Shown here in pieces: positions 3,372-10,541 of a stretch of DNA of 35,458 bases. The notes beneath the pieces were generated by a model that worked only from the letters and a program-made list of their open reading frames with translations, did no database searches and was not told where the DNA came from. Source of the DNA: an uncultured Bacteroidales bacterium (GTDB lineage Bacteria; Bacteroidota; Bacteroidia; Bacteroidales; Paludibacteraceae); NCBI GenBank assembly GCA_902780235.1, contig CACZEL010000019.1, positions 1-35,458 of the forward strand. The letters are read 5' to 3'. Every line of letters starts with the position of its first letter. Position 1 is the first letter of the stretch. The translations under genes and the position numbers were made by a program.

Positions 3372-3403
3372 CAAAATTACTACTTTTGAAGGATACGCGC
3401 AAG
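3372..3403 (-). promoter_or_regulatory. Bacteroidetes promoter of the giant gene at 1-3340
   Basis: On the minus strand the -7 box TAATTTTG (3372-3379) is a full match to TAnnTTTG. Exactly 20 bp upstream is CTTG (3400-3403), one mismatch from the -33 box TTTG. The ATG follows 31 bp after the -7 box. The imperfect -33 box next to an upstream dyad suggests a promoter that depends on an activator (inference). Confidence 0.75.
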
Positions 3404-3410
3404 AAAAGAA

Positions 3411-3445
3411 TACCGCCCATTTGGGTGCGTCCCAAATAGGCGGTA
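3411..3445. promoter_or_regulatory. Dyad operator 1, 9 bp upstream of the -33 box
   Basis: An inverted repeat with 15-bp arms, one mismatch and a 5-bp centre: outer part TACCGCC/GGCGGTA, inner part ATTTGGG/CCCAAAT. Its 31-bp core (3413-3443) matches the dyad at 3999-4029 at 23 of 31 positions, and the differences cluster in the centre and between half-sites. It also lies 38 bp after the stop of the AraC-type gene and is followed on the minus strand by a moderately T-rich tail, so a terminator role is possible as well. Confidence 0.7.
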
Positions 3446-3483
3446 AAATTTGATGTAAAGTCTAATATATTAAGATCCAATAA

Positions 3484-3912
3484 TCATATGTTTCTATATT
3501 CAGAGGGAGTAATTCCGAAATATTGACGAAAGAGCCGACGAAGATTGTCCGGAGTCAATCCTACTTCTCCTGCTATTTTTACTATTGATTTATTAGGACT
3601 ATTTTTCAATAAATCACATGCTATATCTATTCGGATCCGGTTGAGCCATTGCGGAAAGGAAAGCCCATTGGTGTTAGAACTTATGATCTTATTCAACGAG
3701 TGCCGTGATAGTTTCATACGTGAAGCAAAGGTTTCTCGATCCATTTGCACATCCGCGTAGAGTTTTTCCTCAAAAACAGCAGTCATGAGTCGCAGGTACT
3801 CATTCTTAGTATCCTCATCCTGCGGCTTTAATAAAGGATCTACATTACTGCTGCGCATCTTGTCAATCATTTCGACCAACACTTCAAGATTCTTTTTAAT
3901 GACCTGACGCAT
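3484..3912 (-). CDS. AraC-family transcriptional regulator (142 aa)
   Basis: The C-terminal ~85 residues form an AraC-type (HTH_18) DNA-binding domain with two helix-turn-helix units. The first is around SRHSLNKIISSNTNGLSF, followed by FPQWLNRIRIDIACDLL. The second is the hallmark IAGEVGLTPDNLRRLFRQYF followed by GITPSEYRN. The N-terminal ~50 residues are short and carry no cupin or receiver domain, so it resembles the free-standing output domain of a hybrid sensor. An ATG at 3996 is in frame, but it lies upstream of the promoter found at 3958-3989; the ATG at 3910-3912 is therefore the likely start. The gene reads toward the giant secreted gene, and both carry the same dyad at the same promoter distance. 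I infer that it regulates itself and that neighbour. Confidence 0.85.
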   Translation of the reverse strand: MRQVIKKNLEVLVEMIDKMRSSNVDPLLKPQDEDTKNEYLRLMTAVFEEKLYADVQMDRETFASRMKLSRHSLNKIISSNTNGLSFPQWLNRIRIDIACDLLKNSPNKSIVKIAGEVGLTPDNLRRLFRQYFGITPSEYRNI

Positions 3913-3957
3913 AACAATAAAAATACGTTTATACAGACTAATATCAACAATTTTTTG

Positions 3958-3989
3958 CAAAATTAGTGCTTTTTTCTGACATATGCAAA
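3958..3989 (-). promoter_or_regulatory. Bacteroidetes promoter of the AraC-type gene
   Basis: The minus strand reads TTTG (3986-3989), a 20-bp spacer and TAATTTTG (3958-3965), a perfect match to the TTTG-N20-TAnnTTTG form. The ATG at 3912 lies 45 bp downstream. This promoter settles the start choice, because the longer frame would begin upstream of it. Confidence 0.85.
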
Positions 3990-3998
3990 AAATCATAT

Positions 3999-4029
3999 CC
4001 GCTCATTTGGGACACTCCCAAAATAGCGG
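3999..4029. promoter_or_regulatory. Dyad operator 2, 9 bp upstream of the -33 box
   Basis: An inverted repeat with half-sites CCGCT-cat-TTGGG and CCCAA-aat-AGCGG around a 5-bp centre; 11 of 13 arm positions pair. Its centre (4014) is 52.5 bp from the centre of the -7 box, exactly as for the dyad at 3411-3445 and its promoter. This points to a bound protein rather than a terminator. Confidence 0.75.
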
Positions 4030-4375
4030 CATTTTATCGAATATCTTTTAGGAAAGTCAATATATAACAAAAAAAAACGTGAACTTACTGCATTTGGTCC
4101 GTTCGGGCTACCACACCCATAGTGTCCAATATATACAGAAAGCTCACGTGCGTACGTGAGCGTTTTGCATCTATTATAGGAACACTAATAATTCAAGTTG
4201 TGGTAGTATGAACGAATCCCTAATAAAGCAAACGCTAATTATTACATGTCAGTGCGCAACGCTTTGCGCCTTTAAAATCGGTCAATAATAGCCGATATAT
4301 TTTTACCGTTTTATAATGCTGTCAATGCCTGCGGAGAGGATCATTTCAGCAAAAGCATGCTACAAACCGAGATAG
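4030..4375. other. Gene-free stretch between the AraC promoter and nagB
   Basis: I see no convincing gene in these ~345 bp. They hold an A10 run near 4069-4078, a perfect 8-bp-stem hairpin at 4142-4161, a 6-bp-stem hairpin at 4254-4269 (GCGCAA/TTGCGC) and a weak hairpin at 4277-4296 (ATCGG/CCGAT, followed on the minus strand by TTTTA) that could end the nagB transcript. A small RNA cannot be excluded, but no Bacteroidetes promoter was recognised inside. Confidence 0.5.
4142..4161 (-). terminator. Perfect hairpin, possible terminator after nagB
   Basis: GCTCACGT and ACGTGAGC pair perfectly around a 4-base loop. The minus-strand tail CTTTCTGTAT is only moderately T-rich and the site is ~215 bp after the nagB stop, so the terminator role is weakly supported. 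It could also be a dyad protein-binding site. Confidence 0.3.
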
Positions 4376-5185
4376 TTACAGCAATGTTTTCGGGTCGAGG
4401 TTATTGCGCTCGATATCTTTGAAATAGTTGAATGTGCCGACTTTGAGTTCTTCGCAGGCAGCTTCATCGCAGACGATGATACCGTGCTGGTGCATCTGGA
4501 GCATGGATACGGTCCACATGTGGCTGATCGGCTCTTCGATCGCATGTTGAAGGGCACGAGCTTTGTTGTGTCCGTTCACCATGATCAGCACCTCTTTGGC
4601 GTCCATGACAGTACCTACACCTACGGTGAGGGCAGTCTTGGGCACTTTATTCACGTCATTGTCGAAGAAACGGCTGTTGGCGATGATCGTGTCGGTCGTG
4701 AGCTCTTTCTTACGCGTACGGCTGGTGAGCGACGAACCCGGTTCGTTGAACGCGATATGTCCGTCGGGACCGATACCGCCGAGGAACAGGTGGATACCAC
4801 CGATATTCTTGATTTTCTCCTCGTAGCGAGCGCACTCGGCTGCGAGGTCGGGGGCGTTGCCGTTCAGGATATTGACATTCTCTTTGCGGATGTCGATGTG
4901 CGAGAAGAAGTTATTCCACATGAAGCTATGATAGCTCTCCGGGTGCTCTTCCGGCAGGTTGACATACTCGTCCATGTTAAACGTCACTACATTGCGGAAC
5001 GATACCTTGCCCGCCTTGTTGAGTTTGATGAGTTCTTTGTACATACCCAGCGGCGATGAGCCGGTCGGAAGACCCAGCACAAACGGTTTGCTCTCTTTCG
5101 GGTCAAACTCATTGATTTTTTTTGCTACATAATTCGCAGCCCACTGACTGAGCAGGTCATACGAAGGTTCGATAATTACTCTCAT
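4376..5185 (-). CDS. nagB: Glucosamine-6-phosphate deaminase
   Basis: This cytoplasmic enzyme converts glucosamine 6-phosphate to fructose 6-phosphate and ammonia, feeding amino sugars into glycolysis. The 269-aa length fits the short NagB type (E. coli 266 aa). The phosphate-binding [13 protein letters not shown] is at residues 37-49. The catalytic residues fall at the same numbers as in E. coli: D72 (FNMDEY), D141 and H143 ([11 protein letters not shown]) and E148 (NEPG). The sequence [18 protein letters not shown] near residue 220 is also typical. It is the last gene of a minus-strand set: the lipoprotein gene upstream stops at 5216, leaving a 30-bp AT-rich spacer. The order glgB, thioredoxin-like gene, nagB suggests co-transcription and a link to sugar storage and amino-sugar catabolism. 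Confidence 0.96.
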
Positions 5186-8504: not shown

Positions 8505-10541
8505 ATGAAAAAAATTCTATTTCCATTAGTATTGTTGACGCTTATGACAACAGCATGTACGAACCCTCAACAGACGACGGGTATTCACCCGGAGAACCTC
8601 GACACGACGGTCGTGCCGCAGTATGATTTTTACCAATTCGCCTGTGGCGGTTGGATGGCAAACAACCCTTTGACACCCGAATACAGCCGTTTCGGATCCT
8701 TCGACAAACTGGGTCTGCAGAATCTTGAACAAGTGAACGGACTGATTCAGGAAATCGCGGATAAGGTGAAGGGTGAAAGGTTAAAGGTGAAAGACGGTTC
8801 TATTGAGCAGAAGATCGGCGACATGTATAATTTGGCGATGGATACGGCTCGCCGTGATGCCGAAGGGATCGCGCCGGTTCAACCGACCCTTGCTGAGATC
8901 GCCGCTATTGAGTCACGCGAGCAGTTATCGGTGGCTTTGGGTAAAGCGATGGACTACAGCCTCTGGGCAATGTACGTAGATGCCGACGCAATGAACAGTT
9001 CGATGAACATCATGAACGAGTATCAAGCCGGTTTTTCGCTGGGCGAGAAAGAGTATTATATAGATGAAGACGAGCACACGCGCTCGATACGTGCAGCGTA
9101 TGTAGCGTACGTAGAGAAGATGTTCGATTTGTTCGGTTTTGACCACGTGGCAGAGCGTGCGCAGACGGTACTGCGCATGGAGACGCGTCTGGCAAAGGCA
9201 GCATACTCGAATGTTGAACTTCGCGACCCGCAACGCAACTACAACAAGATGAGTATTGATGAGTTACAGGCACTTGTTCCGCAGGTCGATTGGAAAGCAT
9301 ATTTCGCTGCTTTGGGCGTAGAGTTAGACAGCCTTTCCATCGGTCAGATCCCTCATCTGCAGGAAGCAGGAAAGATGTTAGCCGACGAACCGTTGGACGA
9401 TCTCAAGACCTTGTTCTCTTGGCAAGTGATCGAAGGTGCGGCATCGTACCTGACGACAGAGATCTACATGACCAGTTTTGATTTCTACGGTCGTGTGCTG
9501 TCCGGTACCGAAGAACCGCGTCCGCTGTGGAAACGTGCGGTTGGTATCGTGAACGGTACGTTAGGCGAGGCAGTAGGACAGATGTACGTAGCGAAGTACT
9601 TCCCGGAGGAGAACAAAGCGCGTATGTTAGCGTTGGTAAAGAACCTGCAGAAGGCACTCGGTATCCGTATCGAGAACCTCGCATGGATGAGTCGCGAAAC
9701 GAAAGACAAGGCGCTGGAGAAGCTGAACGCGATGACGATCAAGATTGGTTATCCGGACGAATGGCGCGACTATAGCAAGTTGGAGATCAACGCCGAGAAC
9801 ACCTATTATGCGAACCTGCAACGTGCGGCTAAGTTCGAGCAGGACTACAGCTTGAGTTACCTCGGCAAACCGGTGGATAAGAAAAAATGGTATATGACGC
9901 CGCAGACGGTGAATGCGTACTATAACCCGTCGAGCAACGAGATCTGTTTCCCCGCCGGTATCCTGCAATATCCGTTCTTTGACATGAGTGCCGACGATGC
10001 ATTCAACTACGGCGCTATCGGCGTCGTGATTGGTCATGAGATGACCCACGGATTCGATGATCAAGGCTGTCAGTTTGACAAAGATGGTAACATGATCAAC
10101 TGGTGGACCGCCGAAGACAAAGCCGCTTTTGACGCCCGCACGAAAGTGATGGAAGAGGCGTTCAACAAGATCGAAGTAGCACCCGGCGTACATGCGAACG
10201 GTGCGTTCACCTTGGGTGAGAACATCGCCGACCACGGTGGTCTGCAGGTCAGCTATCTGGCTTTCACGCTGAACGAAGAGGCAAAGGCTGAGAAAGACCG
10301 CTTGCAGGAGCGTGACGGCTTCACGCCGCAACAACGTTTCTTCTTGGCGTACGCAAATGTATGGGCAGGAAATATCCGTCCGGAAGAGATCCTGCAACGC
10401 ACAAAGAGCGATCCTCACTCGCTGGGTCGTTGGCGCGTGAACGGAGCCCTGCCGCAGATCAACGCTTGGTATGAAGCATGGAACGTGACGGAAGAAAGTC
10501 CGATGTATATCGCACCCGAAAATCGGGTATCGATATGGTAA
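8505..10541 (+). CDS. pepO: M13-family zinc metallopeptidase lipoprotein (PepO/neprilysin-like)
   Basis: This periplasmic or surface oligopeptidase cleaves small peptides with a catalytic zinc. The 678-aa protein starts MKKILFPLVLL and has a lipobox (LMTTAC), so it is membrane anchored. The N-terminal part (~residues 30-420) is the mainly helical M13 lid. The catalytic domain carries HEMTH (H511, E512, H515) within VIGHEMTHGFDDQG, and ENIAD (E572 the third zinc ligand, D576). NAYYNP near residue 470 and the C-terminal SPMYIAPENRVSIW are also typical. Residues ~87-98 (VKGERLKVKDGS) come from a microrepeat insertion at 8764-8795 placed just before the conserved SIEQKIGDMY. The gene is alone on the + strand, with its own promoter and a terminator at 10550-10571. 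Confidence 0.95.
   Translation: MKKILFPLVLLTLMTTACTNPQQTTGIHPENLDTTVVPQYDFYQFACGGWMANNPLTPEYSRFGSFDKLGLQNLEQVNGLIQEIADKVKGERLKVKDGSIEQKIGDMYNLAMDTARRDAEGIAPVQPTLAEIAAIESREQLSVALGKAMDYSLWAMYVDADAMNSSMNIMNEYQAGFSLGEKEYYIDEDEHTRSIRAAYVAYVEKMFDLFGFDHVAERAQTVLRMETRLAKAAYSNVELRDPQRNYNKMSIDELQALVPQVDWKAYFAALGVELDSLSIGQIPHLQEAGKMLADEPLDDLKTLFSWQVIEGAASYLTTEIYMTSFDFYGRVLSGTEEPRPLWKRAVGIVNGTLGEAVGQMYVAKYFPEENKARMLALVKNLQKALGIRIENLAWMSRETKDKALEKLNAMTIKIGYPDEWRDYSKLEINAENTYYANLQRAAKFEQDYSLSYLGKPVDKKKWYMTPQTVNAYYNPSSNEICFPAGILQYPFFDMSADDAFNYGAIGVVIGHEMTHGFDDQGCQFDKDGNMINWWTAEDKAAFDARTKVMEEAFNKIEVAPGVHANGAFTLGENIADHGGLQVSYLAFTLNEEAKAEKDRLQERDGFTPQQRFFLAYANVWAGNIRPEEILQRTKSDPHSLGRWRVNGALPQINAWYEAWNVTEESPMYIAPENRVSIW
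8764..8795 (+). repeat. In-frame microrepeat within pepO
   Basis: Three to four degenerate copies of a GGTGAAAG/GGTTAAAG-type unit, encoding VKGERLKVKDG in a variable loop. The unit is the complement of the spacer repeats of the TTTCACCTTTCACC type found at 15987-16034. Confidence 0.6.

Follow-up and report, generated by a model that had tools for sequence, protein, structure and literature searches.

Twin palindromic dyads as probable activator operators of an AraC-type regulator and a neighbouring giant gene in an uncultured Bacteroidales lineage

The two dyads that precede the gene of an AraC-type protein and the adjacent gene of a giant secreted protein are interpreted here as class-I-like, autoregulatory activator operators of the AraC-type protein whose gene they flank, with a probability of approximately 0.82. 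Two copies of the regulator, each with two helix-turn-helix motifs, would bind head to head, one half-site apiece; with the -7 box centred at -7, the dyad centre would lie near -60 relative to the inferred start, just upstream of the -33 element, where the bound protein would recruit RNA polymerase, and the regulator would activate both its own gene and that of the giant protein. Binding and the dimer arrangement are predicted from sequence; activation is suggested by the position of the site just upstream of -33, without overlap, and positive autoregulation by the presence of a dyad ahead of the regulator gene. Computation provided the sites themselves and showed that they are conserved, have a fixed geometry, co-occur with the regulator and are reused ahead of unrelated genes. 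The idea of an AraC-type regulon element, put forward in a preliminary description of this DNA, is supported, as all 18 regulator homologues carry the core at a nearly constant distance and, among the 178 genomes of the genus, strict sites are confined to those with the regulator.

The window, i.e., the whole analysed stretch of 35,458 nucleotides, is contig C19 of a 58-contig assembly of 2.28 Mb with a completeness of 78.6% (genome G000). On the minus strand, the nagB-like gene is followed by a gap with a hairpin (4142-4161), a dyad, a promoter, the regulator gene, the second dyad, a promoter and the giant gene (Table 1). The hairpin, GCTCACGT-N4-ACGTGAGC, located between the nagB-like gene and the regulator, is perfect and terminator-like on both strands. 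The search of the window against Rfam at gathering thresholds revealed tRNA only.

Table 1. Features of the regulator and giant-gene locus in the window.
Feature	Position	Strand	Basis or remark
Giant gene, 5' part, signal peptide-like start, cut by contig end	1..3340	-	P0002
-7 box TAATTTTG of giant-gene promoter	3372..3379	-	52.5 bp to dyad centre
-33 element CTTG of giant-gene promoter	3400..3403	-	Sequence; consensus from PMC7366714
Dyad ahead of giant-gene promoter, candidate target operator	3413..3443	-	0 mismatches to pattern; kept in G006, G029 and G090
AraC-type regulator, 142 aa, DNA-binding domain only	3484..3912	-	HTH_18, HTH_AraC; alignment with 13 homologues
TTAGTCTG in regulator leader, common to other regulator leaders	3934..3941	-	Leader comparison
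-7 box TAATTTTG of regulator promoter	3958..3965	-	52.5 bp to dyad centre
-33 element TTTG of regulator promoter	3986..3989	-	Sequence
Dyad ahead of regulator's own promoter, candidate autoregulatory operator	3999..4029	-	0 mismatches; core ahead of 18/18 regulator homologues
nagB-like gene	4376-5185	-	PF01182

Both 31-bp dyads were found at the coordinates given in the preliminary description, match its pattern without mismatches and are identical to each other at 23 of 31 positions, as it had reported. In the whole assembly of the same genome, the pattern at ≤3 mismatches occurs only in these two places, both ahead of promoters, while the pattern read backwards as a control gave 0 matches at the same threshold, and 100 shuffles of the window also yielded 0 matches at ≤3 mismatches. 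Thus, the numerous copies after genes that would have spoken against a regulatory site were not seen in the genome.

The half-site consensus CC(G/A)C(T/C)NATTTGGG was derived from 20 distinct sites, i.e., 40 half-sites, among which positions T8, T9, G11 and G12 are invariant. The half-site comprises about 13 bp, the centre 5-6 bp, and the distance from the outer CC to the inner GG within a half-site is 10 bp, a spacing that would allow a single AraC domain to place its two recognition helices on the same DNA face. The left and right halves within sites agree at 218 of 260 positions, compared with a mean of 204.3 for re-dealt halves (as high in 1 of 5000, a figure inflated by relatedness); such likeness of the two halves is expected of a symmetric binder.

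Both promoters correspond to the sigma-ABfr type of Bacteroidetes, with TAnnTTTG at -7 and TTTG near -33 (consensus from PMC7366714): the box TAATTTTG is present twice, accompanied by TTTG in the regulator promoter and by CTTG (3/4 positions) in that of the giant gene. The distance from the dyad centre to the -7 box, described earlier as identical, is indeed exactly 52.5 bp for both dyads of the window, but it varies from 51.5 to 53.5 bp among relatives. The imperfect -33 element of the target promoter is likewise a property of the window, retained in G029, but is not conserved, since G006 has TTTTTTGC.

The core TTTGG-N7/8-CCAAA was found ahead of the regulator gene in 18 of 18 genomes, with 51.5-53.5 bp between it and the -7 box; in two cases the site deviates by one base, G004 having the -7 box TACCTTTT and G173 one core mismatch. 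Loci totalling 392 kb were scanned in 19 genomes (G077 and the 18 holders of the regulator), with the box permitted up to about 90 bp away, and 40 pairs of core and -7 box without mismatches were detected; 31 of them lie at 51.5-53.5 bp, although these are not independent, as several are near-copies from close relatives and the pair G004:C67 is chance-like, and nine lie at 19.5-31.5 or 81 bp. In G318, belonging to another genus, two TTTGGG-N6-CCCAAA dyads (L152 and L153) are located on one contig, 53 and 52 bp from TAnnTTTG boxes; one precedes genes that by eye look conjugation-related, the other a 928-aa frame. No close homologue of the regulator was found in G318.

The regulator of the window is a member of the AraC/XylS family, with an AraC-type domain of two helix-turn-helix motifs. 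The 170-aa frame P0001 matches HTH_18 with E 9.6e-15 (55.1 bits at a cut-off of 33.6) and HTH_AraC with E 3.8e-9 (36.9 bits at a cut-off of 26.6). The in-frame ATG at 3996 was taken as unused because it lies upstream of the predicted promoter; accordingly, the P0001 query, used in the regulator homologue search over 178 genomes and in the NCBIfam scan, carries 28 leader-encoded residues believed to be untranslated. Single-sequence modelling of the 142-aa protein gave a structure of modest confidence (pLDDT 69.8), with helices fitting two helix-turn-helix motifs; the structural search with this model gave no match at E 0.001, the best being an AraC-type domain, the C-terminus of AraT, at E 0.018 only.

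Homologues of the regulator were found in 18 of the 178 genomes of the genus (E 1e-20 or better). A profile of ten DNA-binding domains, searched over 358 genomes of the family from 33 genera, recovered these 18 genomes at E 4.2e-55 or better; no other genome gave a match at E 1e-18, the 180 sampled from other genera included. In eight genomes searched at E 1e-4, the strongest AraC domain outside the family reached E 4.5e-13. The regulator family is sharply bounded and patchy in the genus. Identity to the regulator of the window is 92% in G006, 91% in G029 and 57% in G090. The octamer TTAGTCTG is located between the -7 box and the regulator start codon in 7 of the 13 leaders examined (G000, G006, G029, G106, G109, G058 and G062, in the latter inside the frame as called) and, with one change, in G151; it is absent from both long-form leaders examined and from the giant-gene leader of the window.

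The full pattern at ≤2 mismatches was detected in 7 of 101 genomes of the genus. Besides the genome of the window, these are three genomes with a pair of dyads separated by 559-588 bp (G006, G029 and G090), two with a single dyad (G074 and G033) and G076, where the 2-mismatch place looks like chance. Loss of the element where the regulator and its target persist, which would have weakened the proposal, was not observed: G006, G029 and G090 keep both dyads. Of the 178 genomes of the genus, 12 contain the strict pattern of site plus promoter, at 17 places in total (0 for the reversed control), and all 12 belong to the 18 that contain the regulator (Fisher p 1.3e-14, a value that ignores shared ancestry). 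This co-occurrence is partly built in, because the regulator's own promoter accounts for 8 of the 17 places; the other 9 lie elsewhere.

The loose pattern TTTGGN{7,10}CCAAAN{36,43}TANNTTTG matched in 100 of 358 genomes of the family, mostly by chance. Within that list, exact TTTGGG-N5/6-CCCAAA sites, selected by eye, are present in 13 of the 18 regulator genomes, in 1 of the 160 other genomes of the genus (G077) and in 3 of the 180 genomes of other genera (G216, G318 and G352). The core alone at ≤2 mismatches, sought in 19 genomes, gave 7 places in the genome of the window among the matches listed, versus 4 in the reversed control; since this is near noise, no wider regulon is claimed from core matches.

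The dyads could also be operators from which the regulator represses, or to which another regulator binds. This is improbable: distance and place by themselves cannot separate an activator from a repressor, but the site lies upstream of -33 and overlaps neither promoter element, as activator sites do. Another binder is brought to mind by G077, which contains two full sites and in whose assembly (80% complete) no regulator was found, but the site otherwise follows one regulator family, far removed in E value from the best other AraC domain of the eight genomes searched at E 1e-4. The absence of the regulator from G077 may be a gap, given that the assembly is incomplete and a contig ends about 400 bp from one of its sites.

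The proposed activator sites precede several types of genes. Close homologues of the giant gene are located beside the regulator in G006, G029 and G090 (93-95% identity, for G006 over the 414 residues present), and in these genomes and the window, 4 of 4, the dyad precedes the giant gene. The homologues of G029 and G090 are open frames of 1404 and 1433 aa, and 1033 of 1121 aligned residues are identical between the giant protein of the window and that of G090. Between G000 and G090, the giant protein is thus 92% identical and the regulators 57%, which reflects either unequal divergence of neighbouring genes or transfer of one of them. No Pfam or NCBIfam match at 0.01 was obtained for P0002 or the giant proteins of G090 and G029; the ends of the latter two resemble a type IX secretion C-terminal domain in motif, without a model match at 0.01.

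Several other regulator genomes contain only distant members of the giant-gene family, with about 30% identity over part of the length. The regulator-less genomes G157, G049, G095, G012 and G083 contain giant-gene homologues with 52-60% identity, and in 0 of 5 was the dyad found at ≤3 mismatches within 400 bp upstream; the homologue of G146, split over two frames, was left out of this check. Of two more distant homologues, L106 has only 3-mismatch matches, located over the -33 region of L106 itself, and for L107 no start position could be assigned.

In G074, a dyad at the usual distance precedes an OEP-HlyD-AcrB operon of an RND pump, and the same operon is preceded by a dyad in G077, where AcrB is 99% identical to that of G074. 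In G141, a dyad is located ahead of the gene following the regulator, whose product shares 96% identity with the S8 peptidase found in G074; it was assigned as a target by gene order, because its start lies about 370 bp past the -7 box. In G106 and G109, two divergent genes, for a protein without Pfam hits and an MFS transporter, share a single dyad located between them, with promoters at 51.5 and 53.5 bp. G147 contains a further dyad site besides that of the regulator promoter.

Inverted repeats near gene ends may also be intrinsic terminators, and the dyads could be hairpins with T-rich tails that end the upstream gene (the AraC-type gene in the case of the giant-gene dyad), with promoters merely close behind. 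The giant-gene dyad has such features: it lies 40 bp past the regulator stop, has a stable fold (-26.3 kcal/mol, z -5.31) and a T-rich tail, and is listed as terminator-like by the scan, as are the G077 dyad at 9093 and, on one strand or on both, the two G090 dyads. G058 and G074 have the site about 30-40 bp past an upstream gene of the same strand. However, the regulator dyad is unlisted by the scan and located 346 bp past the nagB-like gene, with another hairpin in between, and the dyad of G106 and G109, between divergent genes, has no upstream gene to end. Directly upstream of the dyads of G141, G077 (9093) and G147 (C110), a separate hairpin with five or six T is present (-23.6, -17.2 and -20.1 kcal/mol), although these three hairpins were not listed by the consensus scan. 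Terminators are not characterized by a restriction to two genomic copies, by co-occurrence with a single regulator or by a constant spacing from the -7 box, and this explanation is regarded as quite unlikely, even less probable than repression or another binder; some dyads may nevertheless have a double role of operator and terminator. Recent duplication of a promoter, or a functionless chance pair of palindromes, was rejected as contradicted by cross-species conservation: TAATTTTG is common to the two promoters, which are also similarly laid out, but the dyad centres and spacers differ, shuffling gave no matches, the pair is retained in G006, G029 and G090, and the site also precedes unrelated genes in other species.

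Under the preferred reading, one operator type is served by regulators of different architecture, from TPR-membrane-AraC proteins to the bare DNA-binding domain, with constant site and geometry. The long form is represented by seven open frames of 555-566 aa (G074, G141, G144, G139, G004, G155 and G147); three of them were translated, and in the two scanned, weak TPR hits are followed by the AraC domain and no kinase or receiver domain was matched. Inspection by eye suggested a lipobox-like start and a single membrane stretch. Five regulators of the middle form, of 176-210 aa (G106, G109, G058, G151 and G062), have one hydrophobic stretch ahead of the AraC domain, and six consist of the domain only (G000, G006, G029, G090, G033 and G173). 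The protein of the window retains a linker resembling the one that follows the membrane stretch in long-form regulators. In the tree of DNA-binding domains, the three architectures are grouped (3 changes versus a mean of 6.7 for shuffled labels, as low in 1 of 200), while the tree does not settle in which order sensor and anchor were lost or gained.

The long-form regulator of G074 (L052) heads a cluster with S8 and M4 peptidases. Judging by frame lengths, L062, L063 and L064 may contain a similar cluster: in other genomes, frames of matching lengths follow the regulator, with open frames of about 1650-3320 aa beyond them, cut by the end of the stretch examined.

A doubtful but conceivable scenario is that a membrane-anchored sensor-activator lost its periplasmic TPR sensor and then its anchor, and that the bare domain activates itself from the operator of its target, the sensorless pair acting as a bistable, self-sustaining switch that controls a giant surface protein. 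If so, the state of the cell would be set by the level of the regulator and not by a signal.

The motif, its fixed geometry and the regulators form a complete, testable regulator-operator-target set from an uncultured Bacteroidales lineage, and the operator motif can be used for finding the regulon in metagenome assemblies. The natural series of regulators with sensor and anchor, with anchor only and with neither, on seemingly the same site, could show the contribution of the membrane and the sensor to AraC-type control. The operator sequence, in several spellings, was not found in the literature searched, and among publications on TPR-bearing AraC regulators of Bacteroidetes, no title or beginning of an abstract describes this system.

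The palindromic layout, considered unusual for the AraC family in the preliminary description, has known precedents: according to PMC3870299, RhaR and RhaS of E. coli, members of this family, have inverted-repeat sites, and RhaR activates its own operon, whereas direct-repeat sites are described there for other AraC groups, including the RhaR of Bacteroides. Similar to RhaR and RhaS, the system of the window combines an AraC-type DNA-binding domain with two inverted half-sites upstream of a promoter. However, RhaR has 17-bp half-sites with a 17-bp spacer, compared with about 13 bp and a 5-6 bp centre here, and the protein of the window differs from RhaR and RhaS in sequence and has no sugar-sensing domain. 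MarA and SoxS consist of the DNA-binding domain only, with two helix-turn-helix motifs, and bind asymmetric single sites as monomers. The protein of the window resembles them in this composition (HTH_18 match), but its site is a conserved palindrome, and the NCBIfam hits to SoxS and MarA are far below the cut-offs. Hybrid two-component systems of Bacteroidetes end in HTH_18 (PMC11253607). Seven relatives of the regulator, with a TPR-like region, a membrane stretch and a terminal AraC domain, resemble membrane-anchored regulators of Bacteroidetes, but, unlike in the hybrid systems, the two scanned long forms have no kinase or receiver match, and the protein of the window contains neither sensor nor anchor. 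Binding of AraC-family proteins to inverted repeats is already known, and the sensor-loss series is the less ordinary part of this system.
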